From: Eunapius fragilis
Lineage: Eukaryota > Porifera > Demospongiae > Spongillida > Spongillidae
Direction: 5' to 3'
NCBI GenBank assembly: GCA_963681505.1
Contig: OY811976.1
Location: forward strand, 6,885,234-6,949,233
Length of the DNA: 64,000 nucleotides
Both the position numbers and the translations under genes were made by a program. The notes below the pieces were generated by a model. That model ran no database searches. It saw nothing but the letters and a program-made list of their open reading frames with translations, and was not told the DNA's origin. Within the stretch, counting starts at the first letter, position 1. Every line of letters starts with the position of its first letter. Positions 29,218 through 60,776 of the stretch are shown here, in pieces.

Positions 29218-29245
29218 AGGTGAGGTGGTTGTAGGAGGTAGTTAG
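29218..29245. repeat. Single-copy seed of the 28-bp minisatellite beside PARP14-like copy A
   Basis: AGGTGAGGTGGTTGTAGGAG followed by GTAGTTAGGG matches about one unit of the large array. It sits at the position equivalent to the array edge near copy B (60165), just before the shared GTATG/GATGAACCTAA sequence. Confidence 0.7.
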
Positions 29246-29731
29246 GGCTGTATGAGATGAACCTAATCACCCCCCCCCCCCCCCTCCCCCCCCTTGATAG
29301 ATTTTCGAAGTAAAGGAAACCAGAACTCAGCTGAGAAACTGATCCATCAGGTGATCTAGAGCTCTGTCGGCTAAAGTAGGACCATGCAGGGTAAGAGTGA
29401 TCCATGCGGTATGGTGGCCTGGGTACCTGGCCTACTGATTTGACCAGGCATGCAAAGTGTCGGCTGACGTCGGAGACAGGGAACTTAAATGAAGAGAGGT
29501 ACCCACATGGTGGTGTAAAGGTTCAGGCTGAGACAAAAACCAAGGACCATAATGGAGCAATTGTGCCAAGAATCGAAATTTTTAAAATATGCATGCAACT
29601 GTGAGTAACACACACACATATATTGTACCTTATATACATGGGGATAACTAAGATGGTGTTAAGAGAGTTCTTATACTATCCAAATGCTACATAACAATAA
29701 AATTGTCACTCAACAAGGTACATGCAGGTGC
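29222..29731. other. Duplicated 3' flank of PARP14-like copy A
   Basis: About 0.5 kb that aligns with 60165-60776, including CATCAGGTGATCTAGAGCTC and CATGGGGATAACTAAGATGG. It contains no recognised gene and ends at the stop codon side of copy A. A poly-C tract (29270-29293) is also shared with 60300-60323. Confidence 0.85.
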
Positions 29732-32700
29732 CTACAGCGTAGGCATAGATTCTTTGTATTCAATGAGGTAAGCTGGATAGGTCTTTTGGTTGTCATACAC
29801 CAGGAACACTTCGGAGCCCCACTTAGTTGATATGGTCACTGTATTGTATTTCACCTGCGGAAGCTGCAACTTCCCATCTGGCTTTCCAGGCTTGGGAGGA
29901 GGCTCCTGGAGGTTGGAGTTTGGGGGGCAGTTATAACTTTCCCCTGCCAGAAGCTTTACGAGGAACATCTCTTTCTGCCCTGTCATGGCATTGGTGTAGG
30001 CATAAGAGTTGGAATAACTTGCATTCACAGCAAAGTAATTTGCCCTTCCCCAAATCCCTTCTGTACTGTACTTCACATCAAATCCATCTCGGCCTTCATA
30101 GATCAGTTTGGGGTCATTATTATGAGAGCCATGGAATAGTTCCTTCTCATTTACCACTCCATCATTTTCAATAAGCAGTTTCTTCTTGTGCAGAAAGTAC
30201 CTTTCCCACAGCCACTTGTTCTGTATTCGTTGGATTGAACCGATTGTGCACATGGTCTGTGGCATAGTCTTCTGGAACAGTTCAGCTACATGGTTCCACT
30301 CCGTTGAGGTTGGAGATAGGGGGAAAAGCACCGTGGTCTTCATTTGTGGCTGCCATTCAGGTGGAAGTGGAACGGAGTGGGGGGAATCTGTTGTGCAGCA
30401 TGCATTATCCAACATCTCTCGTATTCTAATTTTGGAATTCTCAAGATTGCACTTTAAACCCTTGAGAAGTAGTGTATTGATTTTGTCGTTTTGAGGGGTG
30501 TCCTTTGGTGTAACCACATTGCTGGTTGCGTTTCCATGATCTATTTCTTGTGTAGTAGCTATCACGGGTGGAGATACCGTGAGGGCAGGAATGCACCTGA
30601 TACAATGGTGTTTCATGATTTTTGTATTGGTTTGAGTCATTGAACAGAAATCCATAAAATACATTTGTCCATCAATGGTACAACAATGGCTACCACGTGG
30701 ATCATGGGCATATTCACGAGTAAGTGCTGTACAAATCTCACTTGAGTAATTGACCCACATGTTCTTGTCATCCTGCCACTGCCACACATCTGGTGGTGTT
30801 GTTATGATAGGCACTTCAGGATTAGGACTATCGCAGGGCAAATTGGCCTCTGCCCCATTTGAATGCGATGTCACAGAACACCTACTTTGGATGTCTTCTG
30901 TTTTTGAATTGCGACGAAAATTTCTAAACAATGAGAAACTAGGCTGCTCAGGAAGGCATCTGTGCAGAGCTGACATGAATGCCTCAATGACTGAACCATT
31001 GTCTGGCAACACACATCTTACTTTCTGAATATGAGCTGGAGTGCTAGTGTGCCCTTTGCTAAAATCATATATAGCCGTGAACAAAGATTGAGCAAATAAC
31101 TCTGGAGGAATATTAGTAGGAGGAATATTAGTACCAAAAACTGAAAAGGAGACACTTTCAATTCTCTCTGCTTGCACCAAGTTTAGAATGTTGACAAAGG
31201 TGGTATGAACCTGTTCTTTTCTTTGTCTCCCAAGCCTCTGTTTAGGCCATACAGCATGGATCACCTTGTGACAAAGCAGGCTTCCACCATCAAGACACAC
31301 AGCCTCACCTGGTCTTAGTTTGCCATGAGTTCTGACGTAGTTTTCACAGCTGTATTGAATTGAGGGCCCTCCGTCATCAGCAATTAGCTTTGCCAGACCA
31401 TCACTGTGCACCAAGTTCTCATTTGCATTATTCACAATTGCATAGACTTCCTCATTTACAAGAATTCCTTGTACAATTTCCAGCTTGATGAAATGTGAAA
31501 GCGGGGTGGGTTGTATAAACAGAGGATTTTCAAGAACTGTATTCATTTTTCTACTTCCACTTGAACAGTAAACAAATAACTCATCTTGGATAGTTTTACA
31601 AAACCTTACAAATTCATTGCTTTGTATGGTAGGAACTTGTTGTGGATCAACAACTAAGGTCACTTGATCAATGTCTGCACTCATTGATGTCTGCAGCTGC
31701 TGTAACTCTGTTGTAATGGATTCAACTGCTGCTGGGTTCCCCATAAGCACCAGGTCTTTAGTAGGGACGCTTTGTGCAACTACCTTCACATTGTGTGGTA
31801 GTATGATATCATTCAATTTGCTACTGTACTTTGGTGATGCCAAAATCAACCCCATTATGGGGTCGTTGAGTTCTAGAAGTGTTTTTTGGCTGTCCAGATA
31901 CAGTAAAATTTCTTCTCTTGCCTTTTTAATATCATTATCTGAAGCCTCTAGTGGGGCCACGATCATCATTGTGTTGTAGGTCTCATCAATCTCCACATAT
32001 AAAGCCAATGAATGAATGTTTACCTCATTATTTTGAAATCCCTTGGCAACTATTGGTGCTCCTCTTTTTGGGAGCCTCTGCAGTGTTCCTTTATAGCATC
32101 TTCCGCAATCCCTCATTTGGATGAAAGATTTCAATTCATCAATACATTTCAAATCACCCCATGCATTAAATTTTACCAGAGTAGTGTCAGGTGAATTTTG
32201 GTCAATCTGTTTTTGGACAAACGTAAGCATAACATCTTGCTCTGCTTCTTTTTGTATTTTTAACTGCTGCCAATGCTTAAACCACATTTTGCTGTGCTTA
32301 GTTTCAATCTCAACCTCAAATGAAGTTTCACTATATTGAGTCTCAATATATTGCTTCAACGTAAGCATCATAGCATTAACCTGGTTAACTGTACCTTTCA
32401 GTGTGACTGTGCAATCAACACTTTGATCTTTTAGAAGAGACATGTCTACCTTGTTGTTCACTGCATCTGATTTGAGCTTATGGTTTTTCTCAAGACACTG
32501 GGCTTGAAAAGGAGATACTGGGATCATTTTTGTTATAATATGAGTAGAATTGATAGTGTCTTCGATTTTTTTCAGGCACAGATCACCTTCATCTTTGGTC
32601 AAGGTGTAAATTGCCACAGACCCCACAATATCAGTCACAACTCTGGCTCTGTAGTTCTTCTCTAACTCACATGCCATACCTTTTAAAATGTCCATTGCTT

Positions 32701-33500
32701 CTGCGGCCACTGCGCCCTGGCAAGAATATGGGTGGAGCATCTGTATGAAGAAAAATTGACATGCAGTACATATTGTGCTAAGTTACATTGAATTAAAAAC
32801 TCACTTGCATATGATTGCAGATACATCTGAAGTCATCAGGAAACTGGCTGAAGATAGAAACATCAAGTATTCCATCATCTCTGTCCTTCATAGAATAGTA
32901 AAACTGCAGTTTGTCTCTCCATGGAATGAGAACAAACCTCTCAATTTGGCTTTTACATTCAGAATTACCCATACATAGATATGTGAATACTTGGTGTTGC
33001 AAGTTGCTAAGAAAATTCGTTTTGACAATATCTTGTGATTTTGTAATATCATTCTGGTTTCCAAGAAGCACGATTTCACCTCTTAATACAGATATCTTTG
33101 CAGGTAGTGACGATGCAAACAATTCTCTTTCCTTTGATGTCATCAATCGAAGACGCAGTAGTACTAGGTCTCTGTGACTTTCTGGCCAATTTACAGGAAC
33201 AAATTGATTGTAACTTCTATCCGCACTATGATACACCTTCAATTTGTATTCATGTGCAAAGGTACTTTTGTTCAATTTAGCTGTTGTTGCTATCGCAGTC
33301 TCTGCAGAAGAGCACGTAATATATGCATACCCTACACATAGTCCTGTAACATCTCTGTGCACTGCAATGTCAAGGATGTCTGAATCTTTCACACCCAGAC
33401 TAGATGCATGGTGGCGTATTTGTTCCTCTGTGACATAAGGAGGCAGTCCCTCTTTAATGAAGATTTTTATGGGACTGGGCTTTGATTCAACTAAGCTCAT
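29732..33500 (-). CDS. PARP14-like mono-ADP-ribosyltransferase, copy A (RRM-macro-WWE-ART)
   Basis: Two exons: 32805-33500 and 29732-32740 (phase 0, donor CAA/GTGAGT, acceptor ATACAG), about 1234 aa. Residues about 9-95 are an RRM-like fold (IKIFIKEGLPPYVTEEQI, CVGYAYITC). A long stretch of KH-like repeats follows. A macrodomain lies at about 650-810 (AIVNNANENLVHSDGLAKLI). A WWE domain lies at about 885-955 (WQWQDDKNMWVNYSSEI). The ART catalytic domain is at about 1042-1230. Its ART residues are His1102 in FHGSHNN and Tyr1134 in ANYFAVN. The usual third Glu of poly-ADP-ribosylating enzymes appears to be replaced by Val in EVFLVYD, although a Glu is one residue earlier. This suggests mono-ADP-ribosylation. 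In vertebrates this architecture (PARP14, related to PARP9/10/15) acts in antiviral and interferon responses. That role here is inference. The ATG at 33500 is the first in frame; an extra 5' exon is possible. Confidence 0.88.
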
Positions 33501-33899
33501 TTTATTGCTGCATGTGGAAAGATTATAAAGAGCAGGTCCATGGCTCAAAGTATATATTATGCCACCATACTTAGCTCCCTCTCAACGGCCCGTAATACCA
33601 TGCAATTAATATGGTGATGCAATTACTGTAATTATTGTGTGTGGTGACAGATTGAGCCCTTAACAATAATCAGTTCAGTTAATAGACCTTCGCGAGCTGA
33701 GAAAGGCAAAAAGAGAACGTGAGCAGATCAAAGGATTCTTGTGTAGATCCCCCCCCCCCCCCCCCCCCCACTTATAAATAATGGTACAGTTAATCAATTC
33801 TAGAACATAGTGCTGTGGAATCAACAGTGAGCTGGTGCCAGCAGTTTAAACTATTGTTGCACCTTTCCAAAAGAAAGGATAATCTGAAATTGTTAGGGG

Positions 33900-34620
33900 T
33901 GGAGATGTCCCTGAAAAGCGTGCAGGAGCGAAGTCACTTTGAGATCTATAAGTTGATTTTTGAAGGTAAAAATAATCTATATTTACAGGCATTTATGCGG
34001 CTTATTGTGGCGAGGCGTTTGTCAATAAGGATTTGCATTTATGGTACTCCAAAACCACTGTTGACTGAGGTGGAAGTGGAGGTGGAGGTCAGAATCTAAC
34101 AAAACTGCCATAGCTTGGTACAATTTTGCTACAGATTTTTATACACAATACTTCATTGACCATCCTGCTATCCTTGGTGGACTTGGAGTAGAAATAGATG
34201 AGAGCAAATTTGCCAAATGTAAGTACAACTGTGGAAGGATGGTTGAAGGACACTGGGTTTTTGGAGGAATGGAAAGAATTTCAGGAAGTGCTTTCTGGTC
34301 GAAGTGGAACATAGGGATGTTGCAACATTGCTGCCAATAATTCAGCATCATAATAAACCAGGTTAACAGTGATGAATGGGAAGCATAAAACCAACTTACA
34401 ACCTCTACTGGCCTTGGTTCATCAGACTGTGAATCACTTCCTCCACTTTGTTGACCCTGTCACATGTGTGCACACACCGGGAGTAGAAGGCATGTGAAGT
34501 ACAATGAAGCAGACAGTGTTTGAGAAGCCGAGAACAATGCATTCCCGCCTCTTTGAAACTTACCTTCCTGAGTTAATGTGGAGAAGATTTTTTGGTGGAC
34601 CTTCAGTATTTACCCATCTT
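33900..34620 (+). pseudogene. Merlin (ISXO2/IS1595-like) transposase pseudogene
   Basis: Around 34120-34340 the plus strand reads DHPAILGGLGVEIDESKFAK, then CKYNCGRMVEGHWVFGGMER. This is the conserved catalytic region (IDESKF, RGRxVEGxWVFGG) of Merlin transposases. After stops and shifts, pieces such as VDPVTCVHT (about 34450) and a degenerate C-terminal helix follow. Multiple stops make it a dead copy. The TIRs are not identified. Confidence 0.7.
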
Positions 34621-35039
34621 ATAGTATTGTTGTTCAATTCAAATACATTACATTGTAGCATCTAATTCACATCTCAATGACATCCTACATGTACATTCCG
34701 CATCTCAATCTGTGATACATTTGTTCTGCTATACATATAAGTGCCCCCGGAGATCTACCAGAGAATATATTATCCCTGAATCTACACAAGAACCAATTAA
34801 AGAATTAAGAAGAAATCAACAAAAAGAAACAAGTCCGCATGGGCATCACGGCTCAGTTACCAGGCAGGATCTTAATACAGGGCAGGAAACCTTATACTTT
34901 GAATAAAAAGTGCAACAGAAGCCTTCAATTTTGGAATGGGAATGAAGTTCAAAGCAGATGTTTTACATTTTTATGGCATTAGATATACAGTACCGGCTCG
35001 GTAATCAACACATATACGTGCTAACATGCCTGCGTGCGT

Positions 35040-35203
<164 letters not shown>

Positions 35204-35207
<4 letters not shown>

Positions 35208-35329
35208 AGGTAAGACCGGACCAATATACATCAGTACTTCACCGTACCTAGCGCAGGTTCGAAGATTTGTACCTTCAAAACCTGCACTAGGTACGGTGAA
35301 GTACTGATTTATATTGGTCTTACCTCTGT
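35204..35329. mobile_element. Short palindromic MITE, 126 bp, next to a CA tract
   Basis: The arms of about 55 bp start ACAGAGGTAAGACC and include CAGTACTTCACCGTACCTAG. The loop is around 35262-35275. The left arm begins directly where a (CA)n tract ends. Confidence 0.8.
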
Positions 35330-35999
35330 AAGTCCTAGAAGTGCTGGGGCAGGCGATCGGGGACACTACTGAAAGTCCTGAAGACACATGAATCTACAGC
35401 GCTTGCCGTTGAAGAGACACCATCAGACTTACATACCACCCTTGCTGCATTCCGCGTATTTACGACTGCGATCAAGGCGAAATTCGCACCTTATAGGAAG
35501 AGACGGCGCAAATACAGCGATTTAGTGGTCAAAATATGCCTACGAACACTATCAACTTCGCACTTTCTTTCTATCCACCTTTTAAGTGTTTGGGTTCTCA
35601 ACGAGCATCGCAAAAGGTACAGCAAATTAGGACCCTCAAAATGGTATAACTACCCTTCCGCTCAACCGGTGACGCTCGAACAATTACTTCCGCACAACCG
35701 GTGACGCTCGAACAATTACTACGCCACGTAGAAAAGAAATGTACGAACACAATAATCAAAGGCATAGGTAGCGACGGAAAGACGATAAAGGTACAGAGAA
35801 AAATTTTATTGCCAAACTGAATCATTTAAAAATGCAAAACATGAAGCAAAGTAGATAGGACAATCGCTCAAAATGGCTAGTATAAGTGTTAAACAGTATT
35901 AAAGTGGACAAAGCATATACCTAATATGTGGAGGAAAACGCTTCTTTCTAAGCAATTATAGGAACAGAGCCAATTATTTTGCGAGGGAGGGAGGGGCGT
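35330..35999. other. Unannotated stretch with a 37-bp tandem duplication
   Basis: CAACCGGTGACGCTCGAACA with ATTACT occurs twice at about 35662-35722. No gene, RNA or transposon is recognised. Confidence 0.5.
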
Positions 36000-36200
36000 T
36001 ATTATCATGGTTTGGGCGTGGCTACGAAATATTGGGCGTAAGAGAGAAAGATGTATCCGGGGTCTGGGGCGAAGCCCCAGCCGCTGTTTACTGTTATCAT
36101 GTTGTTTACCGCTGTTTACTGTTATCATGTTACTTCGGCGCGTTTTCGTTATATTTGTATCATCAGGGCAACGTACGACACCGCCCCTTGTAGCCCGGAA
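36000..36200. repeat. Dispersed repeat, copy 1 (hairpin GGTCTGGGGCGAAGCCCCAG)
   Basis: Shares TGGCTACGAAATATTG, the hairpin core, ACTGTTATCATGTTACTT and ATCATCAG with 40190-40360. A shorter relative with the same hairpin is at about 38955-38975. Confidence 0.7.
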
Positions 36201-36527
36201 ACGACACACATATATTGGGGGCACTCGAGAAGGTGCTGGTCTGGGTACGGGTACGGGAACCAAAGGCGAAATGTACATATACCCAGCGGCGGATCCACGT
36301 AGACAAGGGGGAGGGGGGCTTGAGCCCTTCCAAATTTTTCCATGAGAATAATATTAAAAATTATCATGGGTGATTAGAATTAACCACTGATAAGCGTACG
36401 TACTATGTCTTTTAAGTTCATCAGTGGCGCCTCGACAAACGATCCATCACTTGATTTGAACCCTTAGCATTAGCATGCTTAGGAACGGTATGAATCGGCG
36501 GTGGCGGTGTGGCTGAGGATAGGTGGC

Positions 36528-37701
36528 CAGGGGCGGATCCAGGAATTTTGATGGGGGGGGAGGGGCACCAACAATGAAAAGTTATAATTAAGTGAGAATG
36601 GGCGTGGTTCACCGAAAGAGGCCGAGGGTGGGTGCGGGAGGGGCCGATCGGGAGCGAGTAGTACCTTATTTGGTGTTGATCTACAAATAGCACATTACAT
36701 CAGCTATCACAATGTTCATGACGCACCGGTATAAATATAACCAGCGTTATCAAATTCGATGGTTTTACTATGCAATCTCAAGGACAATTCTGATGCCATT
36801 CGAGCATCTAAAATTTGAAAGATCCAGATGCTGCCAAACGAGTGTATGTCAAGCGCGCTACCGAAAGGACCAACGGTACGTTACAGCATGGATCCATAAA
36901 CTATGGTATATCGCTAAAATGGAAGAAATAGTTTCTGTATTAAATAGCGGTAGATATTGCGACTCCGCTTTATAGTAATATGCGCTGTTTGAAATGTGTG
37001 TATAACGCAAAAGTTGCTTACGATAACGTATAGTGGTGCATGGTTTATCGTGAGACCAGTTTACTTGGGTACATTTATCCTATGTATTATATGGCTTCGC
37101 TTTTGCCAATGCTTTTAACCTTTATCACCCTTTGGTTCTCAATGGAGGTAGTCTGCATGTGGACTAATGAGCAAAATTGCACATTCAAAAATAAATGTAC
37201 ATGTCATGATCGCGCAAGATGATGTTTTCGCTACCTGGGTCTATAAGTTTCAAGAACTAGGAAACAAGTAATAAAAACATTCCGGCTCTATACGAGAAGG
37301 TTTGTGGTATATAGGAATCAAAGGTGATGGTGGTGTAAAAAGCGAGGGAACAAGGCTTCTGATTGAAAAGGAAAAATGAAATAGACTTATATTAGCACAA
37401 TGTTGTCGTAAATATGCCTGCTAATATAGGTCTATTTAATTTTTCATTCCCTTTCTTTTTACATCACCATCACCTTTGATTCCTATATACCACCAACCTT
37501 CTCGTATAGAGAATGTTTTTATTACTTTGCAATTTAAAAAATGCTATATCAGTTGCGCGACTATGAATATATAATTAGACGAACGAAGGGAGGCATAGAT
37601 AGTTTAGAGAAACTAAACTATTTATGAGGGAGGGGAGGGCACGGGCCCCCTGTGGCCCCCCCCCCACCCCCCCCCCCCCCCCCTTCCTGGATCTGCCACT
37701 G
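36528..37701. mobile_element. Candidate hAT-like element, TIR CAGKGGCRGATCCAGG
   Basis: The left end is CAGGGGCGGATCCAGGAA followed by a G-rich stretch; the inverted right end is CAGTGGCAGATCCAGGAA followed by poly-G. No matching 8-bp flank was found. A palindromic MITE lies inside. The 87-codon frame at 36712-36975 is not recognised. Confidence 0.45.
37266..37527. mobile_element. Palindromic MITE, 262 bp
   Basis: The arms start AAGTAATAAAAACATTC and are inverted copies over about 80 bp (GGTATATAGGAATCAAAGG on the left is mirrored at 37470-37488). The loop is around 37400-37415. Confidence 0.8.
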
Positions 37702-38178
37702 GTGGCAAACCCACGTACGTTCGTATACGTTCATAAAAATTATACTTGTCAGTTTACGGGTGATTGTGCGGAGAAATACTGGTTTGCTCCCCCAGCCATA
37801 CCGCCTCTGTGAATCTGGCTGAACTGTGATTATTCAAAGTGAACCATAATCCCAGCCGTCACATTCATATGTTTGGAGTTTTCATTTCACCAGGTGTTAT
37901 TTGCATGAACGCATCCGTGCAATTTGTGATTGAACTGCATGCGTATACGCCTCGATGTATGAAATCTGCGCGATACAAATTATTTAGTGTAGACAGTGCA
38001 CAGGCGCGAACGTACGGTAGGGTTAAATCCCCAACAGATATCCGGTATTGAATAACTTTACGAGCGTATATTCATATACATGCATGATGAATATTAAAAC
38101 ACATATAGAAATGCATAATTCACATCAACATATGCGTTAGGGGGTGTGTGTGGTCAGGCTCGTTACGACGGTTTTCAG

Positions 38179-38828: not shown

Positions 38829-38836
38829 GTTTTCAG

Positions 38837-40189: not shown

Positions 40190-40360
40190 GGCGTTAATAA
40201 TCATAGTTGGGGGTGGCTACGAAATATTGCGCGTGTTGTACCCGGGGTCTGGGGCAAAGCCCCAGCCGCTTTTTACTGTTATCATGTTACTTGAGCGCGT
40301 TTTCGTTGTATTTATATCATCAGCGCGACATAAGACACCGCCCTTGTAGCTATGAATACT
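40190..40360. repeat. Dispersed repeat, copy 2
   Basis: Same sequence family as 36000-36200 in the same orientation, followed by CTATGAATACTTAATTTC and a poly-C tract. Confidence 0.7.
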
Positions 40361-43961: not shown

Positions 43962-44525
43962 TCATATAAATGTTTTCTGTGGTATAGGACACACATATAG
44001 TGTGTCTTCATCATTCATGCTGTTGAATCCTGCCACAAATTGGGATTGTATCCTTTGCACAGGAAGAAAACTTGCTGGCCCAAACGGTTCGAACAAGTTT
44101 GCACACCAGGTCTCCATTCTGGTAGTAGCTACATTATGCTGCGAAGAATGATGTTGATACCATTGCACAAAAGCAAATACATGTGGCACTACATTCTGTT
44201 GAATTGTAAAGCTGTGTTTGAAGAAATATAGAACACGTCCAGGCCGAAAGTCAACGGTGTTGATGTCTACTTTTCCGTCTCTACCACACCATGCTGCCAA
44301 TATGAAGGATGATCTTTTGGATTTGCTTTGTTGTGAACCATACACATTGTTACCGAACTTAATTTTAGAATGTTTCTTGGCATAAAATGATATTTGCTGA
44401 TAGTTTGCTGCTTGATTGTATAAAACTTTGTATGATTCGATTAAGTAGGCAATGGAAGATTCATCAAGAAAAATTTCTTTACTAACACCTACAAGGTCAT
44501 ATGGTTCAAGACAATGCCAAATCAT
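43962..44525 (-). pseudogene. C-terminal domain of the CACTA transposase, separated by a frameshift
   Basis: A 187-codon frame begins with ATG overlapping the stop of the transposase core by one base. It has segments such as EWHCLEPYDL (if the two frames are read across the shift), FILAAWCGRDGKVD, FRPGRVLYFFKHS, FAFVQWYQHH and WCANLFEPFGPASFLPVQRI. These resemble the conserved tail of animal CACTA transposases, so it is more likely the broken-off end of the same protein than a separate gene. It could be an assembly error or a real inactivating indel. Confidence 0.7.
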
Positions 44526-46989
44526 TCTATTACCTCACATGCAGGCAACCTTGATGCAGTCTGAATTTCCAAATGTGAATTAGAATTTAGAGCAAGCATG
44601 TCATTGAGAGTTCCAACAACTGCAGTTGTTTGGTCTAACTCCTGTACAATCGAATGGGCAGTGTAGCTTTCATCTCTTATATGTAACTTGCCTATTTCCA
44701 TTTCTTGAACAAAATGCCTCATTAACTGTACTTCAATAGACCTGTTGTTAGTTCTATAGCTACCCAAAATACCATTGTATCTTTCAAATGAAAATGACCA
44801 GAATGCATAGACAGGCCCATAGTCCAAAATGCAGTTCAAGATGTGCATGTGCATGTGCATGGTAGGCGTAACCTTGTCCTTACCATACAGCCGCTGAAAC
44901 TGCTTGCAAAACTGCAATAGTAACTTGTGTCCCTCCATAGCATCATGAATCTTCAGCATAGGGGAAACTAGGATGTTGCATGCTTGTACAAATAGATACC
45001 AGTACTCAAGATGCTCCTGTTCTAGCACGCCATGAAGGGCATACGTAGAAAAAACCATTGTCCATGTTTTCCATTGGTCTGCTGTAAAAGAACTGAATGA
45101 AGATGCAATTTTATGTGGGATTCTACCCATTGAAGAAGGAGTTTCACACTTATCAACTTTCTCTTGCATCATTGCATGAAACCTTTTAGGTATAATAGGT
45201 TCAATATCATCTAACCATACGTTCTTCATAATGTGTTTTGCTGTTCCAAGGAATAGGTTGTGCATGGGGTCAACTATATGAAAGCGAACACAATCAAAGT
45301 ATTCCAAAAGCATTAAAGCAGTAAATCGTGAACCGTATTGTGATTCTATACGATCTCTTGCAGCTTGAGTTGTTTGCATGGAGGCCAAATCTGCTTGTTC
45401 ACGGTGGTCAGATTCATTTCGTAAGGGCGATTCATCTTCGCCATCATCGAAACAACCAAAACAAGCATGACCAGTTTCACAGTTGATGTGAGACTCTTTA
45501 GTGCACTTTGAACATCCCAATTTAGCCATGTGGCCTAAAAATCCACAAATTTTCCTTGCTGCAGGAATATCACAGGCTACACAAAGCAGTCCTGCTTTCA
45601 AATGCACTTGCTGGCCTGGGTTGTCTGGCATATTAATGACCATGCCCTCACTCCACAAAACCTTTAATTCCTCCACTAAGGGCTCCAGGTAAGAATTAAT
45701 ATTAAGCGGAGGCTCATTTGGACCTGGAATTAAACCAAAAAGAATCATGTTTTCTTTTAAAAATCTTTTTGAGCGTGGAAGATTCATAACAGATAAATAC
45801 ACAGCTCCAACACTGTATGGTGTGTGCTTGAATGGGGTAAACCAGTCAACGTTCATCATTAGGCCTATGTTATGGGGGGCAGCAAGGAATGCTGACCCAT
45901 TGACATACTGGAACTCCTCCCAAATCTTGCCATCATAGATATCACAAAGAGTATCCTTGGGTATCTTCCGTTCACGCCAATGTTCACATGAGTTCAAAAC
46001 ACCTGGCTTACTAAGCAAAGTTTGCAACGATTCTATAAGAGGTTTATAACAGTACACTTTCAAAGGATAGAACTTGTGATCCCCATCTTTAGTGACTACA
46101 GCCCTCAAAAGTTGAGATCCGCAATGCTGCCTTCGGGAACGATGAGGGTGGTTGGGGAACTTGGAAAATGAGCACACTTTGGGGATCATTTTAGCTTTAT
46201 CAACAAAGCACTTCTCAAACTCATAAAGAGTATGGCATTTCGGGCAAGAAACTAAACGCCTAAAGTCATTGCTGTTAACATTGAGACAACTATGTAAGCC
46301 TATAATTGAGGTTGGAAAAATGGTTGTCATCTGGGCAACAAAAGATGAACACCTACCTACAATGATAAAAACACAGCTGATAATGCGAATTAAAGCTGAG
46401 ACTGCAGCTATTGAGATGTTGTATCTTGATGACCACTTAGACAAAAGTACTAAAAAGAAAGCTACAACTCTTGAAGAGTCGTCACTACAGACATCAGTTT
46501 CTAGATGCACGAGATGCTCATGCAAGGAATTAGTTGATTTTTCCATCATGTCACCTTCAATTTCAGAAACATTCACACCTTCCCACACCTCACCATCATC
46601 CACCTCATCTTCCAGGCAGTCCTCCGTAGCTTGTAGCTCAGCAGTGGAGTTATCCATCTCATCATCACTTAAACCTTCCGAATTATCACTGCCTATGAAA
46701 AAATAATGGAGGATTATCAGTGACAGTGCACATCCAAAATGATTGCTAATACGACAAGGCTTACTACATGGATGGATGTCAGTATGATAATTTATCCCTG
46801 ACCTGAATTTAATTGAATTGCACCACCATCATCCCCCTCATCCTCAGATGTAGACGGAACAGATTGACAATCTTTACTCCAAATCCGCGTGTGATCATCG
46901 TAGTATGCCTCCTTGTGCCTTAAAAATGTACGTGCTGATATAAATTCCTCACAGTGTTCGCAATATCGATACAAATGATTCCGATCCAT
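44522..46989 (-). CDS. CACTA (tnp2-family) transposase, main part
   Basis: Exon 1 is 46803-46989 and exon 2 is 44522-46692, with correct phase across a 110-bp intron, giving about 785 aa. The N-terminus has a Cys/His cluster (YCEHCEEFISARTFLRHKE) resembling a small zinc finger. An acidic linker follows, then the transposase core. DWFTPFKHTPYSVG holds the probable first catalytic Asp (about residue 345), DPMHNLFLGTAKH the second (about 537) and FWSFSFERYNGIL the Glu (about 699), matching the DDE pattern of tnp2 proteins. Other Cys pairs (SCPKCHTLYEFEKC, GCSKC) may bind zinc. The reading frame stops at 44522 by an ATGA overlap with the next frame, which encodes the family's C-terminal domain. 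This suggests a 1-nt frameshift, since no intron with fitting phase is visible. Confidence 0.85.
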
Positions 46990-47152
46990 TGTATATACAC
47001 AGACGCGAAGTTTTTCAAAATAAAAACGTCAGAAAATTCGGACCAATCAATTTCATTCTATACTTAACGAGATACATCAAAAAATACACAAGGCGGTAAA
47101 ATCAGACCAATCATTTTTCACTTCTGCGCAAAAAAAACGCGCGCGTCACATA

Positions 47153-48453
47153 ATGCAGCTGTTGACAGCAGCTCATGTATGCATGAATAGTTTCACTATC
47201 TGTTGCATTCATTTTTCTTTGAATCAGTCAGTATGTCATCAGCTCGTACTCCCGTTCGACCACTCGGAACGGGTGAAGACAGCGAGCGTAGGGTTTCGTC
47301 ACCTTTTCTGTCGTCGTCGAGATCTTTGTTGCAGCCTGCATGCAGGTAAAAAAAAAAAAAATCATTCATTTCATGCAAATGAGGACCATTTGTTTTAGAT
47401 TCCCGACGACAGGAAAGTGCCGCCGGCAGTACTGGTAATGTTAACGTCCAGATACTTGCGGCGATTAAATCGCTCCAAGAACAAGTGGCGGACTTACAGG
47501 CCAAGTCTACGCAACCAGCTGCCTCTTCCATCGAACAATGTGCAGTTTCTAAGAAAGCACCAAAAGAACTGTTGGTAAAGTATATTGAACTTTATCATGC
47601 ATGTAATACCAATAACGTGCTTTCTATAGACATCTATTCACAGTGTTGTGAGGCATCTTCGAGAAAGACTGGATGCACCTATGCAATGGGACACAAGTTC
47701 AGGGTAAGCAATTTGCATTTGAAAACATAACCTTATAATTGCATGTATTGCACAGTTTTTCTTCGCCTGAAAATATGCGGGTGACATCGGAGATTGTAAC
47801 AGCCTGTGTCAACGAGAAGTATCCTGCTTCCGTTGTACAAAGTAAGTCACTATCCATGCAAGAGAGTATACATGTATATATTCAAACAATGTTTTTACAG
47901 AAGCCACCAAAAAATACTTCACAACTCTGAAGCGGCGCTCGCGTCTACAAACTAACAACAAACTTCCAGACGCGAGAAAAAAAACAACGAAGGCTTCAGT
48001 GAAAGCACCACGTACGTTTATGACTATGCAGAATTTAACGTGATGTGTATTAGCATTAATCAATAATCATTCGGCATACAGAAACTTCAGAATGTCAAAG
48101 TAGCTCTGTCGGGATCAACAACTTTAACACAGGAGCAGAAAGAAAAGTTTTCTTCTATTCTTCGCATCGAATACATGTCTTCGGAAGAAAGCGCCGAGGA
48201 ATCGGGTGAGGACGAGCACATGGGGGAACGATTAAAGGTGCTCCTCATTCACACTCTCCCGTGGAGAAATCCAAGCGTGAACGAAATGTTCCAATCACTG
48301 GATCGCAAAAGTGCAAGAAAAAGAACATCAAGAGCAGCTGAAATGTGCCGCAAACGGTGCCGTGCTAGCGCTACTGAACCATCCTCGCCGAGCGGATTTA
48401 CAGCAAAACCTCCACCATCCTGCCCTGCGTGGGCAAAAGTGTCTGACTGTTAA
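47153..48453 (+). CDS. CACTA accessory gene, multi-exon, function unknown, possibly decayed
   Basis: Divergent from the transposase, as is common for the second gene of CACTA elements. Probable exons: 47153-47345 (an alternative ATG at 47233 is in another frame), 47399-47703, 47756-47841, 47901-48011 and 48082-48453. Exon 2 encodes a coiled segment (VNVQILAAIKSLQEQVADLQ). Exon 4 is basic (KYFTTLKRRSRLQ). The last exon has an acidic patch (SSEESAEESGEDEHM), then a hydrophobic and basic part (LPWRNPSVNEMFQSLDRKS) and a Pro-rich end. The 47345/47399 and 47841/47901 junctions keep frame. The 47703/47756 and 48011/48082 junctions do not in my reading, so either the exon ends are wrong or the gene is broken. 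I do not recognise a domain with known function. Confidence 0.45.
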
Positions 48454-50395: not shown

Positions 50396-51532
50396 ATATC
50401 AAATGTATCATATTCCACTTATCACATTTCAGAACAGCAAATTGCCCAATCATGCAGGGAAACACAAGTGACTACGGTGTGTATGCATGTCTAGTAAGTT
50501 TATGTTACATCAATATAACTATTCAGGATAAAAAGCATGCGCTACTGTCTTTTTAAAAAACTATGTTTCATAAGAGAATGCTGTGGATAAGGTATGGCTT
50601 TGGTAGTGACTTTAGCTTATTATCCTTTGTTGTTTACTTGGATAGGAAACACTACTGCATCGCCCATCAATGCTCATTGTAAAGCTGTTATTATACCTGA
50701 AGACAGTAGGGTATGCTACATGTGAAATAAATGGTGATGCATATATTTTACGTTTTTTCCCCCGCTCCAGTGCATTGTAATGACAATAAAAGTGACACAT
50801 TTTCGAATCAAAGTACCCTTGACCACAATGATAGCAGTAATGACAACATTCGTAGTAGTGAAAGAGGCTGTTTTGGTTCTAAGAATGTGGAGAAATTCCT
50901 GATCCCATCTTACTACAACAAGCCAGATGTGGATGATATATGTGCTCTGAAGAGAGGTTTGATGTTAAGTTCTTTCCCTCATTGAGAAGACCTCGAGCTC
51001 CTTACACGTAAGATCACCTACAGTTTTCATTAGTAATCCTTGAAATATATAGAACAGCGAATGCCCTTTCAGTAGAAACTTCATAAGGAAAGGTGGGAAG
51101 GGCTATCACCGCTCTTATAACGACGAAGTTTGATACAAACCGAGAAGCTATTTCGCATGTCTTTACCCACACATTGCCATAATAACTGCAAATACAAACC
51201 TATATGCATGGCACACAATCAATGAATATTCAAAACGAAATGATTATCATTAGCCGTCGGCCTAATTGTAAGAGATAATTGCTTGGAATGTGCGGCCTGA
51301 GGCTGAATGTGCGGCTAACTTCCCCTCCCTCCCCCCCGGATCCGCCACTGCAGAGACAAACCTCTTAGACTGTAATAAAGCTCTTTCGTTAATAACCGTT
51401 TCAAGGAGTGCCTATGTACAACTATGCGCTCACGTGACCTCGTTTCTAATCCCTCTCTTCTAATATCTATGATATACTTAATGAATGGCGTTAACTCCCA
51501 AGCTTGTCAGTCTATCCTGACACATTTTTCGA

Positions 51533-53515
51533 TCATAGTACATTCTTAACTCGTGCTAATGTACTAAATGAGCGTTCCGCCTGTGCTACAGAAACTGGAA
51601 GTGTGCAGAAAATTCGTAGGACAACCATTATAAACAAAGCATCAAGTCTCATCCCGTGGAAACTATTTAACAAATCAAGGGGAGATAGACTCTTTTCACC
51701 GAGATTGGCTGTGTGGATAGCTTTCAATTGTAACATCTCAGTTACAAAATCCTCTGATATGTCTGCACTGTACTTCTCACACAAAGCTCCAGCTTTGCTC
51801 AGTAACTCCTCCTCATCCATACTTTGATAGGCCCATACAAATCCAAACAGAGCAACTCAGTCTAACTCTTTGGCTGCCTTGTCAAATTTCCTATAACGCA
51901 GTCCAGAAGGGTGTAAAAAACATTATGCTTGAAATGATTTTCTGTATCAAACTCTATATCTTTTTCCTGTGTATCATCAGGAACATTTTCCATTGTCATA
52001 TCCTTGTCCACGACAGTCTGCAATAGGTATGTTGTGCTTGGTAAGTGTATCAAGGATCAACTGTGCAATTGCCTCTCCAATTTTTTTTTAGGAGAGAGGT
52101 AATGGACTTACAATCGACATTGGAATTTTGACTTGTTTTGACCTTTTTTAAGTGTTCTTCAAGGATGGGATCATAGTGGCTGATCAATTCCAATATACCA
52201 AGGAAATTACCATTTCCTGAATCCCCAATAAGTTGGTTGTCTCCTCTAAATGCTAATTCTCTCTCTCCAAGAAATAGTGTACCATCTAAAATTCTATGCA
52301 ATATCTGTTTCCAGTAAGCTGCCTTACTCCTAATATTGTGCAATACGTACTGGTCCACGGTGGAGTCACACTGTATGCTTTTCTCCATATCGCGCCACTA
52401 AATGTAGCACATTTTGTGATTGTTGCATGCTACTCAAGTTTGATGTTCAGGAATCTTCTCATGTAATTTTTTCCATCTTTGACATGTAGAGTAGCCTGGT
52501 GCACAAGTTGAAAAAGAGCAATTTGCAGATGGAAGTTTACTGAAAAGACGATACAGGAAACTAAACAATGCCTTCTTTGTTTTACTCCAGGCCAGCCAGT
52601 CGCGTTGTATTACTTCACCATTTTGCAATGAAGCCTGAAGGATGCTTGTAGGAAATGAATGACCATATTCATCATCAGGAAAATGTGTTGGAAAGTTGTC
52701 AGAGCCACGCTGAACTGCTTCTCTCACTTGAGCTGGTGATGGCACTTCATTCTCTATTAACCCTACATCATAATCATGAAGACTCAGCTACAGCATGGTG
52801 CTCAACTATAGCTATTGGCTGAGCCAATAAGGTGAGTGCACGTCCAGGTTAGATCTGAAATTTCATGCTCGGCATTGGAATCGTTATGTACGTCACAATT
52901 GTCGTTCCTAGCTGTGTCAGTGAAGTCGTTCCTAGCTGTGTCAGTGAAGTCGTTCCTAGCTGTGTCAGTGAAGTCGTTCCTAGCTGTGTCAGTGAAGTTG
53001 TTCCTAGCTATGTCAGTGAAGTCGTTCCTAGCTGTGTCAGTAAAGTCGTTCCTAGCTGTGTCAGTGAAGTCGTTCCTAGCTGTGTCAGTGAAGTCGTTCC
53101 TAGCTGTGTCAGTGAAGTCGTTCCTAGCTGTGTCAGTGAAGTCGTTCCTAGCTGTGTCGGTGAAGTCGTTCCTAGCTATGTCAGTGAAGTCGTTCCTAGC
53201 TGTGTCAGTGAAGTCGTTCCTAGCTGTGTCAGTGAAGTCGTTCCTAGCTATGTCAGTGAAGTCGTTCCTAGCTGTGTCAGTGAAGTCGTTCCTAGCTGTG
53301 TCAGTGAAGTCGTTCCTAGCTGTGTCGGTGAAGGTGTTCCTAGCTGTGTCGGTGAAGTCGTTCCTAGCTGTGTCAGTGAAGGTGTTTGCGACGAAGCCTA
53401 AACATTTCAAAGTTTTTTGTCTTTTGGTAGGATCGTGGTTCTCTTCTCTTACTGCCCTTTCCTTTCTTTTCTGCCACCCGGACTTGTGCTTGTACATTTT
53501 AGAAAATGAATACAA
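51533..53515 (-). pseudogene. hAT-family transposase pseudogene (ZMYM1/52-kDa-repressor-like)
   Basis: Pieces in N to C order: 53515-53400 with YKHKSGWQKRKERAVREE, the usual N-terminus; 52745-52434 with RDWLAWSKTKKALFSFLYRL (TTF-type zinc-finger region); 52388-52050 with FRGDNQLIGDSGNGNFLGIL and ISHYDPILEEHLKK (DUF4371); 52053-51862; and 51820-51533 with LPVSVAQAERSFSTLARVKN, the hAT C-terminal dimerisation motif. The pieces lie in several frames with stops and a large part of the RNase-H-like core is missing, so the gene is dead. A 24-bp minisatellite has expanded in frame after the N-terminus. Confidence 0.8.
52905..53392. repeat. 24-bp in-frame minisatellite within the hAT pseudogene
   Basis: About 20 copies of a 24-bp unit (GTCGTTCCTAGCTGTGTCAG plus TGAA), read on the minus strand as FTDTARND. 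Because 24 is a multiple of three, the frame stays open through the array. Confidence 0.95.
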
Positions 53516-53727
53516 AGAAATTGCATGTTATATGGTACATGATTCTATTCTGCACAGAACGTATACAATTTTATTGCACCTGTGCAATGATCACAACAAA
53601 ACATCAATCACACATTAAAAATAAAGTAAAAGACCAGCCTGGCGGCCTGAGCCCCATGTTTAACAACGGGCCCCGGGGTCAGCAGCCCCCCCGGCCCCCC
53701 CCCCCCCCCTCTCGGCGGCCCTGGTTG

Positions 53728-55010
53728 TAGGTGGGGTGGTTGTAGGAGGTAGTTGTAGGTGGAGTGGTTGTAGGAGGTAGTTGTAGGTGGGGTGGTTGTA
53801 GAAGGTAGTTGTAGGTGGGGTGGTTGTAGGAGGTAGTTTGAGGTAGGGTGGTTGTAGGAGGTAGTTGTAGGTGGGGTGGTTGTAGAAGGTAGTTGCAGGT
53901 GGGGTGGTTGTAGGAGGTAGTTGTAGGTGGGGTAGTTGTAGGAGGTAGTTGTAGGTGGGGTGGTTGTAGGAGGCAGTTGTAGGTGGGGTGGTTGTAGGTG
54001 GTAGTTGTAGGTGGGGTGGTTGTAGGAGGTAGTTGTAGGTGGGGTGGTTGTAGGAGGTAGTTGTAGGTGGGGTGGTTGTAGGAGGTAGTTGTAGATGGGG
54101 TGGTTGTAGGAGGTAGTTGTAGGTGGGGTGGTTGAAGGAGGTAGTTGTAGGTGGGGGAAGTTGTAGGAGGTAGTTGTAGGTGGGGTGGTTGTAGGAGGTA
54201 GTTGTAGGTGGGGTGGTTGTAGGAGGTAGTTGTAGGTGGGGTGGTTGTAGGAGGTAGTTGTAGGTGGGGTGGTTGTAGGAGGTAGTTGTAGGTGGGGTGG
54301 TTGTAGGAGGTAGTTGTAGGTGGGGTGGTTGTAGGAGGTAGTTGTAGGTGGGGTGGTTGTAGGAGGTAGTTGTAGGTGGGGGAGGTTGTAGGAGGTAGTT
54401 GTAGGTGGGGTGGTTGTAGGAGGTAGTTGTAGGTGGGGGAGGTTGTAGGAGGTAGTTGTAAGTGGGGTGGTTGAAGGAGGTAGTTGTAGGTGGGGGAAGT
54501 TGTAGGAGGTAGTTGTAGGTGGGGTGGTTGTAGGAGGTAGTTGTAGGTGGGGTGGTTGTAGGAGGTAGTTGTAGGTGGGGTGGTTGTAGGAGGTAGTTGT
54601 AGGTGGGGTGGTTGTAGGAGGTAGTTGTAGGTGGGGTGGTTGTAGGAGGTAGTTGTAGGTGGGGGAAGTTGTAGGAGGTAGTTGTAGGTGGGGTGGTTGT
54701 AGGAGGTAGTTGTAGGTGGGGTGGTTGTAGGAGGTAGTTGTAGGTGGGGTGGTTGTAGGAGGTAGTTGTAGGTGGGGTGGTTGTAGGAGGTAGTTGTAGG
54801 TGGGGTGGTTGTAGGAGGTAGTTGTAGGTGGGGTGGTTGTAGGAGGTAGTTGTAGGTGGGGTGGTTGTACGAGGTAGTTGTAGGTGGGGTGGTTGTAGGA
54901 GGTAGTTGTAGGTGGGGTGGTTGTAGGAGGTAGTTGTAGGTGGGGTGGTTGTAGGAGGTAGTTGTAGGTGGGGTGGTTGTAGGAAGTAGTTGTACGTGGG
55001 GGTGGTTGTA
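53728..55010. repeat. 28-bp minisatellite, first block
   Basis: Unit GTAGGAGGTAGTTGTAGGTG plus GGGTGGTT, about 46 copies with little variation. It is separated from the larger block by a 0.56 kb insertion. Long open frames across it are not genes. Confidence 0.97.
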
Positions 55011-55013
55011 GGC

Positions 55014-55573
55014 AGGCCCGTTGAGAGCGGCACGGAGGCCCGGGGTATTTAAGTTAATGAGGCCCCTCACCCATGCCAAGCATAGCCGCGGATCCAGGTT
55101 ATAGGGGGGGTGGGGCACGGATGGTGGGTGTGGCTGGGTGCTTTTGGCTTCTGGCCCGATACGAAAAGCGGGGGGGGGGGGGGGGGGGGGTGCTGTCGGT
55201 TTCTAGCCTAATATAAAAAGTGGGGGAAGGGGGGTATGATCGCATATCGGGGGGCCCAGGATATAGTACACTAGTAGAGTTAATGCGTACGGGTATCAAT
55301 AGGTGGCGCAAGCATGCGGCTATTATTATAAAATGCAGCCCAAAAAGTTATGAATTTATATTTGGAAGGGGGGGGGGGGGGGGGGGGGGGGAGAGACACG
55401 TGCACTGAGTTACCCCCCCCCCTCCGGATCCGCCGCTGAAGCATCACATTTGATGATGATTCCTTCAACCCCCCAATTGTAGGAATAATATTTTCTGGAC
55501 CCGGAGGCCCCTTTACACCCTGAGGCCCGGGGTAACTTACCCTGCTTACCCCCCCCTCTCTACGGCCCTGGTT
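55014..55573. mobile_element. hAT-like MITE inserted in the 28-bp array
   Basis: The left end reads CAGGCCCGTTGAGAG and the inverted right end CAGGGCCGTAGAGAG. Flanking array sequence on both sides reads GTTGTAGG (8 bp), matching a hAT-type duplication. However, that string also belongs to the repeat, so the duplication is not proof. The interior has GC-rich low-complexity tracts and no gene. Confidence 0.6.
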
Positions 55574-58500
55574 GTAGGAGGTAGTTGTAGGTGGGGGTGG
55601 TTGTAGAAGGTAGTTGCAGGTGGGGTGGTTGTAGAAGGTAGTTGTAGGTGGGGTGGTTGTAGGAGGTAGTTGTAGGTGGGGGTGGTTGTAGGAGGTAGTT
55701 GTAGGTGGGGTGGTTGTGTGAGGTAGTTGTAGGTGGGGTGGTTGTAGGAGGTAGTTGTAGGTGGGGGTGGTTGTAGGAGGTAGTTGTAGGTGGGGTGGTT
55801 GTAGGAGGTAGTTGTAGATGGGGTGGTTATAGAAGGTAATTGCAGGTGGGGTGGTTGTAGGAGGTAGTTGTAGGTGGGGTGGTTGTAGGAGGTAGTTGTA
55901 GGTGGGGTGGTTGTAGGAGGTAGTTGTAGGTGGGGTGGTTGTGTGAGGTAGTTGTAGGTGGGGGTGGTTGTAGAAGGTAGTTGCAGGTGGGGTGGTTGTA
56001 GGAGGTAGTTGTAGGTGGGGTGGTTGTAGGAGGTAGTTGTAGGTGAGGGTGGTTGTAGGAGGTAGTTGTAGGTGGGGTGGTTGTAGGAGGTAGTTGTAGG
56101 TGGGGTGGTTGTAGGAGGTAGTTGTTGGTGGGGTGGTTGTGTGAGGTAGTTGTAGGTGGGGTGGTTGTAGGAGGTAGTTGTAGGTGGGGTGGTTTTAGAA
56201 GGTAGTTGTAGGAGGTAGTTGGAGGTTGGGTGGTTGTAGGAGGTAGTTGTAGGTGGGGTGGTTGTAGGAGGTAGTTGTAGGTGGGGTGGTTGTGTGAGGT
56301 AGTTGTAGGTGGGGTGGTTGTAGGAGGTAGTTGTAGGTGGGGTGGTTGTAGGAGGTAGTTGTAGGTGGGGTGGTTGTGTGAGGTAGTTGTAGGTGGGGTG
56401 GTTGTAGGAGGTAGTTGTAGGTGGGGTGGTTGTAGGAGGTAGTTGTAGGTGGGGTGGTTGTAGAAGGTAATTGCAGGTGGGGTGGTTGTAGGAGGTAGTT
56501 GTAGTTGGGGTGGTTGTAGGAGGTAGTTGTAGGTGGGGTGGTTGTAGGAGGTAGTTGTAGGTGGGGTGGTTGTAGGAGGTAGTTGTAGGTGGGGTGGTTG
56601 TAGGAGGTAGTTGTAGGTGGGGGTGGTTGTAGGAGGTAGTTGTAGGTGGGGTGGTTGTAGAAGGTAGTTGCAGGTGGGGTGGTTGTAGGAGGTAGTTGTA
56701 GGTGGGGTGGTTGTAGGAGGTAGTTTTAGGGGAGGGTGGTTGTAGGAGGTAGTTGTAGGTGGGGTGGTTGTAGGAGGTAGTTGTAGGTGGGGTGGTTGTA
56801 GGAGGTAGTTGTAGGTGGGGTGGTTGTAGGAGGTAGTTGTAGGTGGGGTGGTTGTGTGAGGTAGTTGTAGGTGGGGTGGTTGTAGGAGGTAGTTGTAGGT
56901 GGGGTGGTTGTGTGAGGTAGTTGTAGGTGGGGTGGTTTTAGAAGGTAGTTGTAGGAGGTAGTTGGAGGTTGGGTGGTTGTAGGAGGTAGTTGTAGGTGGG
57001 GTGGTTGTAGGAGGTAGTTGTAGGTGGGGTGGTTGTGTGAGGTAGTTGTAGGTGGGGTGGTTGTAGGAGGTAGTTGTAGGTGGGGGTGGTTGTAGGAGGT
57101 AGTTGTAGGTGGGGTGGTTGTAGGAGGTAGTTGTAGGTGGGGTGGTTGTAGGAGGTAGTTGTAGGTGGGGTGGTTGTAGAAGGTAGTTGTAGGTGGGGTG
57201 GTTGTAGAAGGTAGTTGTAGGTGGGGTGGTTGTAGGAGGTAGTTGTAGGTGGGGTGGTTGTAGAAGGTAGTTGTAGGTGGGGTGGTTGTAGGAGGTAGTT
57301 GTAGGTGGGGTGGTTGTAGGAGGTAGTTGTAGGTGGGGTGGTTGTAGAAGGTAGTTGTAGGTGGGGTGGTTGTAGGAGGTAGTTGTAGGTGGGGTGGTTG
57401 TAGGAAGTAGTTGTAGGTGGGGTGGTTGTAGGAGGTAGTTGTAGGTGGGGTGGTTGTAGGAGGTAGTTGTAGGTGGGGGTGGTTGTAGGAGGTAGTTGTA
57501 GGTGGGGTGGTTGTAGGAGGTAGTTGTAGGTGGGGTGGTTGTAGGAGGTAGTTGTAGGTGGGGTGGTTGTAGGAGGTAGTTGTAGGTTGGGTGGTTGTAG
57601 GAGGTAGTTGTAGGTGGGGTGGTTGTAGAAGGTAGTTGTAGGTGGGGTGGTTGTAGGAGGTAGTTGTAGGTGGGGTTGTTGTAGGAGGTAGTTGTAGGTG
57701 GGGTGGTTGTAGGAGGTAGTTGTAGGTGGGGTGGTTGTAGGAGGTAGTTGTAGGTGGGGTGGTTGTAGAAGGTAGTTGTAGGTGGGGTGGTTGTAGGAGG
57801 TAGTTGTAGGTGGGGTGGTTGTGTGAGGTAGTTGTAGGTGGGGTGGTTGTAGAAGGTAGTTGTAGGTGGGGGTGGTTGTAGAAGGTAGTTGTAGGTGGGG
57901 TGGTTGTATGAGGTAATTGTAGGTGGGGTGGTTGTATGAGGTAGTTGTAGGTGGGGTGGTTGTAGGAGGTAGTTGTAGGTGGGGTGGTTGTAGGAGGTAG
58001 TTGTAGGTGGGGTGTTTGTAGGAGGTAGTTGTAGGTGGGGTGTTTGTAGGAGGTAGTTGTAGGTGGGGTGGTTGTAGGAGGTAGTTGTAGGTGGGGTGGT
58101 TGTAGGAGGTAGTTGTAGGTGGGGTGGTTGTAGAAGGTAGTTGTAGGTGGGGTGGTTGTAGGAGGTAGTTGTAGGTGGGGTGGTTGTAGGAGGTAGTTGT
58201 AGGTGGGGTGGTTGTAGGAGGTAGTTGTAGGTGGGGGTGGTTGTAGAAGGTAGTTGTAGGTGGGGGTGGTTGTAGAAGGTAGTTGTAGGTGGGGTGGTTG
58301 TAGGTGGGGTGGTTGTAGGAGGTAGTTGTAGGTGGGGTGGTTGTAGGTGGGGTGGTTGTAGGAGGTAGTTGTAGGTGGGGTGGTTGTAGGAGGTAGTTGT
58401 AGGTGGGGGTGGTTGTAGGAGGTAGTTGTAGGTGGGGTGGTTGTGTGAGGTAGTTGTAGGTGGGGTGGTTGTAGAAGGTAGTTGTAGGTGGGGGTGGTTG

Positions 58501-60180
58501 TAGAAGGTAGTTGCAGGTGGGGTGGTTGTAGGAGGTAGTTGTAGGTGGGGTGGTTGTAGGAGGTAGTTGTAGGTGGGGTGGTTGTAGGAGGTAGTTGCAG
58601 GTGGGGTGGTTGTAGGAGGTAGTTGTAGGTGGGGTGGTTGTAGGAGGTGGTTGTAGGTGGGGTGGTTGTAGGAGGTAGTTGCCAGTGGGGTGGTTGTAGG
58701 AGGTAGTTGCAGGTGGGGTGGTTGTAGGAGGTAGTTGTAGGTGGGGTGGTTGTAGGAGGTAGTTGTAGGTGGGGAGGTTGTAGGAGGTAGTTGCAGGTGG
58801 GGTGGTTGTAGGAGGTAGTTGCAGGTGGGGTGGTTGTAGGAGGTAGTTGTAGGTGGGGTGGTTGTAGGAGGTGGTTGTAGGTGGGGTGGTTGTAGGAGGT
58901 AGTTGCCAGTGGGGTGGTTGTAGGAGGTAGTTGCAGGTGGGGTGGTTGTAGGAGGTAGTTGTAGGTGGGGTGGTTGTAGGAAGTAGTTGCAGGTGGGGTG
59001 GTTGTAGGAGGTAGTTGTAGGTGGGGTGGTTGTAGGAGGTAGTTGCAGGTGGGGTGGTTGTAGGAGGTAGTTGTAGGTGGGGTGGTTGTAGGAGGTAGTT
59101 GTAGGTGGGGGTGGTTGTAGGAGGTAGTTGTAGGTGGGGTGGTTGTAGGAGGTAGTTGTAGGTGGGGAGGTTGTAGGAGGTAGTTGTAGGTGGGGGTGGT
59201 TGTAGAACGTAGTTGTAGGTGGGGTTGTTGTAAGAGGTAGTTGCAGGTGGGGTGGTTGTAGGAGGTAGTTGTAGGTGGGGTGGTTGTAGGAGGTAGTTGT
59301 AGGTGGGGTGGTTGTAGGAGGTAGTTGTAGGTGGGGTGGTTGTAGGAGGTAGTTGTAGGTGGGGTGGTTGTGTGAGGTAGTTGTAGGTGGGGTGGTTGTA
59401 GAAGGTAGTTGTAGGAGGTAGTTGTAGGTGGGGTGGTTGTAGGAGGTAGTTGTAGGTGGGGTGGTTGTAGGAGGTAGTTGTAGGTGGGGTGGTTGTAGGA
59501 GGTAGTTGTAGGTGGGGTGGTTGTAGGAGGTAGTTGTAGGTGGGGAGGTTGTAGGTGGTAGTTGTAGGTGGGGTGGTTGTAGGAGGTAGTTGTAGGTGGG
59601 GTGGTTGTAGGAGGTAGTTGTAGGTGGGGTGGTTGTAGAAGGTAGTTGTAGGTGGGGTGGTTGTAGGATGTAGTTGTAGGTGGGGTGGTTGTAGGAGGTA
59701 GTTGTTGGTGGGGGAGGTTGTAGGAGGTAGTTGTAGGTGGGGTGGTTGTAGGAGGTAGTTGTAGGTGGGGGTGGTTGTAGGAGGTAGTTGTAGGTGGGGT
59801 GGTTGTAGGAGGTAGTTGCAGGTGGGGTGGTTGTAGGAGGTAGTTGTAGGTGGGGTGGTTGTAGGAGGTAGTTGCAGGTGGGGTGGTTGTAGGAGGTAGT
59901 TGTAGGTGGGGTGGTTGTAGGAGGTAGTTGCAGGTGGGGTGGTTGTAGGAGGTAGTTGTAGGTGGGGTGGTTGTAGGAGGTAGTTGTAGGTGGGGGTGGT
60001 TGTATGAGGTAGTTGTAGGTGGGGTGGTTGTAGGAGGTAGTTGTAGGTGGGGTGGTTGTAGGAGGTAGTTGTAGGTGGGGTGGTTGTAGGAGGTAGTTGT
60101 AGGTGGGGTGGTTGTAGGAGGTAGTTGTAGGTGGGGTGGTTGTAGAAGGTAGTTGTAGGTAGGGTGGTTGTAGGAGGTAG
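55574..60180. repeat. 28-bp minisatellite, second block (4.6 kb)
   Basis: About 160 copies of the same 28-bp unit, more diverged than the first block. Variants include GTGTGAGGTAG, GTAGAAGGTAG and TTGCAGGTGGGG, some 27 or 29 bp long. The block ends at the conserved 3' flank of PARP14-like copy B. Confidence 0.97.
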
Positions 60181-60776
60181 AGGGTTGTATGGGGTATGGG
60201 ATGAACCTAACCACTTGCTTCTGCATAATCGGTGTTATGCATGTGGAGGCAGGAGGAAGTTGGACTTGGTCACCTTGATTCTGGGAGTGATTGTAGTACC
60301 CCCCCCCCCCCCCCCCCCCCCCCTTTGATAGAGTTTCAAAGTGGAAGGACCAGAACTCCGCTGAACTGATCCATCAGGTGATCTAGAGCTCTGCCGGCTA
60401 CAGTATGACCATGCAGGGTAGGCTTTGGGTCAAGAGTGGACCATGCAGTATGGTGGCCTGGATACCTGGCCTACTGGTTGGACCAGGCATGCAGTTACAT
60501 AAACACAGTGTGTTGGTTGATGTTGGAGATAGAGAACTTCAATGGAGAAAGGTACCCACATGGAGGTGTAAAGGTTCAGGCTGAGATGAGGACCAAGCAC
60601 CATAATGGAGCAATTGTGCCAAGAACCGAAATTTTTAAAATATGCATGCATCTGTGAGTAGCACACACATATTGTACCATATATACATGGGGATAACTAA
60701 GATGGTGTTAAAAGAGTTCTTGTACTATCCAAATGCTAAACTGTCACTCAACAAAACTAAATGTACATGCAGATGC
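60165..60776. other. Duplicated 3' flank of PARP14-like copy B
   Basis: Homologous to 29222-29731. It differs by a roughly 80-bp insertion (about 60212-60300) before the poly-C tract. No gene is seen. Confidence 0.85.

Follow-up and report, generated by a model that had tools for sequence, protein, structure and literature searches.

When a tandem array and a single copy of its unit stand at matching positions beside duplicated genes, do they record the birth of a minisatellite? The question is raised by a 64,000-nucleotide stretch of the Eunapius fragilis genome (hereafter the window; contig OY811976.1), in which a preliminary description saw a before-and-after view of array expansion, with about one 28-bp unit beside PARP copy A and about 200 beside copy B. 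Extending it with a third copy (C), a transposon at the left edge of array B, another inside B, and left flanks with no detectable homology between the copies, we consider it likely that the array lies at the edge of a triplicated PARP segment, that at least one unit was ancestral, and that the arrays then changed length independently, copy A having either never expanded or lost units. Coordinates of all features are collected in Table 1.

Table 1. Repeat units, inserted elements and PARP open frames at the three copies
Feature	Position	Strand	Details
Copy A unit, left part	28211..28222	+	
993-bp TIR element in copy A unit	28223..29215	.	ends TAGTCTCGG...CCGAGACTA
Copy A unit, right part	29225..29240	+	preceded by the right-hand target duplication (29216-29224)
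PARP copy A, 1002-aa open frame	29732..32740	-	Macro, WWE, PARP catalytic domains
Transposon forming left edge of array B	51493..53723	-	end CTCTCGGCGGCCCTG at 53709-53723
28-bp minisatellite, copy B left block	53724..55012	+	~46 units, ~92 half-units
MITE inside array B, 558 bp	55013..55570	+	inverted ends CAGGCCCG...CGGCCCTG
28-bp minisatellite, copy B right block	55571..60180	+	~165 units, ~328 half-units
PARP copy B, 986-aa open frame	60777..63737	-	Macro, WWE, PARP catalytic domains
PARP copy C, 1009-aa open frame	L012:3034-6063		outside the window

Array B and the elements in and beside it

Array B extends over positions 53724-60180, where TRF reports a period of 28 in two overlapping rows of 202 and 28 copies, the first of which spans the inserted element as well. 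Its two blocks together hold about 210 units in 5.9 kb adjoining the homologous PARP 3' flank, in agreement with the size first described, lengths and unit numbers being those of one assembly. The unit consists of GTTGTAGGTGGGGTG followed by GTTGTAGGAGGTA. These half-units, 15 and 13 bp long, alternate almost strictly, and both are built on the core GTTGTAGG. Head-to-tail units in the range of about 10-100 bp, in long arrays (28 bp; about 210 units in B, 12 in C), identify the repeat as a minisatellite. The G-rich strand has a G4Hunter-type score of 1.25 over three consensus units vs 0.16 for the window. A protein-coding reading was considered and rejected: open frames of up to 1166 aa on the minus strand arise mechanically, because the unit has a length not divisible by three and the C-rich consensus, judged by eye, has no stop in any frame. 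Large arrays are ordinary in the window, where 33% of bases lie in tandem repeats of period at least 7 (compared with 6% in the 50 kb that follow on the right) and array B is the longest. The proportion reaches 40% in the first 27 kb of the window. Elsewhere in the window, a 711-aa open frame (44522-46657) matches Transposase_21 (tnp2; E=2.7e-20).

Exact internal repeats in array B reach 226 bp, and one of 172 bp recurs at an offset of 743 bp, complete with rare variants seen twice. From these exact block repeats we infer that growth probably occurred through slippage or unequal exchange, with blocks of several units copied within the array. An assembly artefact, in which array lengths are wrong or copies collapsed, is very improbable; tandem repeats are hard to assemble, but a transposable element flanked by a target duplication interrupts array B, variants differ along the array, and the left flank is different in each copy.

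The splitting element combines terminal inverted repeats, an 8-bp target duplication (GTTGTAGG at 55005-55012 and 55571-55578) and many copies, which are the marks of a MITE. A genome search, in which 40 of 614 candidates were scored, returned the element itself and 23 others at 88-96% identity over most of its length, the 16 further scored candidates being shorter or weaker. Target duplications of 8 bp are the rule for hAT MITEs, and on the likeness of its inverted ends and duplication we take the element to be of hAT type, although no transposase of that family was identified here. Of 11 unit variants compared between the blocks that it separates, GGTGGGGGAA occurs in 3 of 46 left and 0 of 165 right units (p=0.01), GGTGGGGGTGG in 0 left and 16 right units (p=0.026) and GTTGAAGG in 2 left and 0 right units (p=0.047), all three values being uncorrected for the 11 trials. 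The other eight show no difference at p<0.05, four of them being absent or nearly absent from both blocks. These differences hint weakly that the two sides of the element have been changing independently of each other.

On its left, array B starts directly at the end of a transposon whose listed start marks only how far similarity to a single family copy extends. Family similarity ends at 53723 in one of nine loci and at 53727 in the other eight, and the 15 bases up to 53723 match the end of the inner element at 13 of 15 positions; judged by this end sequence, the transposon may be hAT-like. A 237-aa frame tested within it yielded no transposase domain, and no convincing opposite end came to light when 33000-56000 was scanned for the 15 bases at up to four mismatches. 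Of the matches in that scan, a four-mismatch one at 47415 was taken as chance and the other is the inner element's own end. The transposon also holds a tandem repeat of its own, 20 units of 24 bp at 52901-53381, for which six other family copies (L057, L058, L061, L063, L064 and L065) have about 2 to 3.5 units with similarity on both sides; this is possibly a cleaner before-and-after case than the 28-bp array.

The split unit of copy A

Joined across the inserted element, the two parts at copy A form one 28-bp unit that matches the consensus at 27 of 28 positions, which upholds the original reading of about one unit. The related sequence GGTGTGGTCGTTGTAGG reported to the left of the element is not a separate unit; it overlaps the left part of the same unit. 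The exact core GTTGTAGG, the form searched for, occurs beside A twice only, both times in this unit. The 993-bp element is bounded by an imperfect 9-bp target duplication (8/9; GTAGGTGAG / GAAGGTGAG), and because the two parts of the unit are complementary and in phase, the element would have landed in a copy A that already consisted of about one unit. Compared with the majority of seven family copies, the element is different at 7 of 278 sites, 6 of 13 family loci having been dropped where the stretch was uncovered on the strand used. This divergence suggests that the one-unit state is not very recent, and does not tell whether it was the first state. Nested within the insertion is a further inverted-repeat element, a MITE of about 206 bp (28389-28597), which is 98-100% identical to its scored genome copies, so that its family has been recently active.

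These observations bear on two readings. According to the first, a true birth, the single unit of A is the original state, and growth took place only in the B/C lineage, mostly in B; the near-consensus unit, its state before the insertion and the element's divergence all speak for this reading, which we hold as a serious possibility short of probable. According to the second, the ancestor had several units, and either the duplication broke inside the array or the array contracted in A; a contraction would have had to reach one unit before the element inserted, and the confinement of the exact core to one unit also tells against it.

Shared and unshared flanks

A genome search with the flank of A, scoring 40 of 153 candidates, found two other places at 89% identity, copies B and C. 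Copy C lies about 12 kb past the right end of the window and its 24 half-units, or about 12 units, adjoin the right-hand junction seen also in A and B, so that homologous right-hand edges bear 1 (A), about 12 (C) and about 210 (B) units, the differing number expected of a VNTR. With up to two mismatches the unit matches 188 places in the genome, 177 in the window (all in array B) and 11 in C, and the reversed pattern matches none; the array is therefore not a product of chance. Compared with array B in 340-bp windows (step 14), the array of C has a best edit distance of 26 and a middle-ranked one of 43, and the variants in C, two of which occur in B (twice each) and one of which does not, are too few to decide common descent.

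The flanks on the right, earlier described as aligning to the edge of the array, can be aligned from close to the unit out across PARP, with about 5 kb of homology for every pair of copies and more for B vs C. The junction GGAGGTAGTTAGGG(C/T)TGTATG is common to copies A and C, with a slight alteration in B, and on the strength of this common junction at least one unit would have been present before A, B and C separated. Within this 3' flank, up to about 110 bp (29453-29565) recur at 74-90% identity on C6, C20 and C22, partly clustered.

To the left of the arrays, blastn (E 0.01) found no homology adjoining an array among the three copies. The 49 kb left of A (partly masked) share only 31-94 bp matches with the regions on the left of B and of C and with the region beyond C, and six matches of 50-174 bp between the left sides of B and C adjoin no array. 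The 823 bp left of A match only themselves in a genome search that skips simple repeats and very common words, and the left flank of C is repeat-derived to about 10 bp before the array. A newborn minisatellite would have both flanks homologous at the empty and the expanded site; here this holds for the right flank only. Given that no shared left flank was found, and given the transposon at the edge of B and the repeat-derived flank of C, the repeat lies at the end of the duplication homology, and A is consequently not a clean empty site; its single unit may have been left by truncation or by contraction, or may be a true "before" state. Thus the size difference at a shared right edge stands, but the fully homologous position claimed for it does not. 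The missing left homology weighs against birth, and it favours loss or truncation in A, as do the lack of a second genome match for A's left flank and the transposon end at B with no convincing partner in 33000-56000 (up to four mismatches). A human parallel points the same way: PMC4411736 describes truncated minisatellite segments at the junction of a duplication beside a large minisatellite. We regard loss or truncation as a credible account that stops short of likelihood.

Branching order

The order of duplication bears directly on whether A can stand for the earlier state. In columns 0-750 of a three-way alignment, mostly non-coding flank, 40 sites group B with C, 15 A with C and 15 A with B, vs 60, 90 and 52 in the remaining columns (Fisher p=8e-5, the cut having been placed after inspection of the data). 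Six outgroup loci (L025-L030; L031-L035 were excluded because they match just 68-81 bp) allowed about 115 bp of flank to be polarised, giving five sites for B+C and none for either other pairing. Beside the array, A probably branches outside B+C, which favours birth. The same flank has 15 changes specific to A and 2 specific to B, and A lacks bases present in all six outgroup loci spanning the spot. Beside the array A is also the eroded copy, and the excess of 15 A-specific over 5 B/C-shared changes, together with the missing bases, counts against birth and is in keeping with loss.

The PARP genes themselves, whose domains were scanned with Pfam in the two copies within the window, give B+C no support, a further point against birth. 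Rooted with one outgroup (L019), coding sites divide into 11 for AB, 9 for AC and 7 for BC, and with the majority of four outgroups into 8, 7 and 6; with paralogues of about 70-72% identity as outgroups, no clear tree emerges, and the order of duplication therefore rests on the short flank. The coding parts have perhaps been mixed by gene conversion, which is also what the conflicting site patterns along the three long-frame paralogues suggest. More distant PARP relatives (70-75%) are found on contigs C8, C11 and C21.

The claim of birth is partly supported, in that A probably branches first beside the array and the element would have landed in what already read as a single unit, but a single unit also fits contraction or a duplication breakpoint inside an array. 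We posit that a non-coding 28-bp minisatellite stood at one edge of a PARP-bearing segment now present as three copies in a row (A, B and C), and that its arrays, changing length independently, would have reached about 210 units at copy B and 12 at copy C. Copy A would never have expanded or would have lost units, before a transposable element split the remaining one. The series of 1, 12 and 210 units is real and of a known kind, ordinary tandem-repeat growth and loss; the "birth" of the array from a single unit is plausible but unproven. A stronger version, in which three tandem paralogues keep successive stages (1, about 12 and about 210 units), A is the true pre-expansion state and the transposon insertions serve as time markers, is conceivable, though we lean against it.

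Comparable minisatellites and significance

Lineage-specific expansion from a single unit is already documented (PMC7425993), as is the occurrence of a large minisatellite next to the junction of a duplication (PMC4411736). In the first, the unit of the 33-bp VNTR in the human TRIB3 promoter is single in great apes and other mammals and expanded in one lineage. The likeness lies in a unit that is single at related positions and expanded in one lineage, but the TRIB3 case compares species at one locus, with known direction and alleles of 1 to 5 units, whereas the present locus compares paralogues with one shared flank and up to about 210 units. In the second, the 16q24.1 minisatellite near FOXF1 measures 8,688 bp in human vs 597 bp in chimpanzee. 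It is likewise a kilobase-sized minisatellite, very variable in length between homologous positions and beside a duplication junction; that comparison was made between species at one locus with polymorphism measured, whereas ours is between tandem paralogues in one assembly.

Where a tandem array terminates a duplicated segment, copies with one and with many units do not by themselves make a before-and-after pair, because truncation or contraction also leaves a single unit. If A proved to be ancestral, the locus would offer a growth series for one array inside a single genome, with transposon insertions as time markers.
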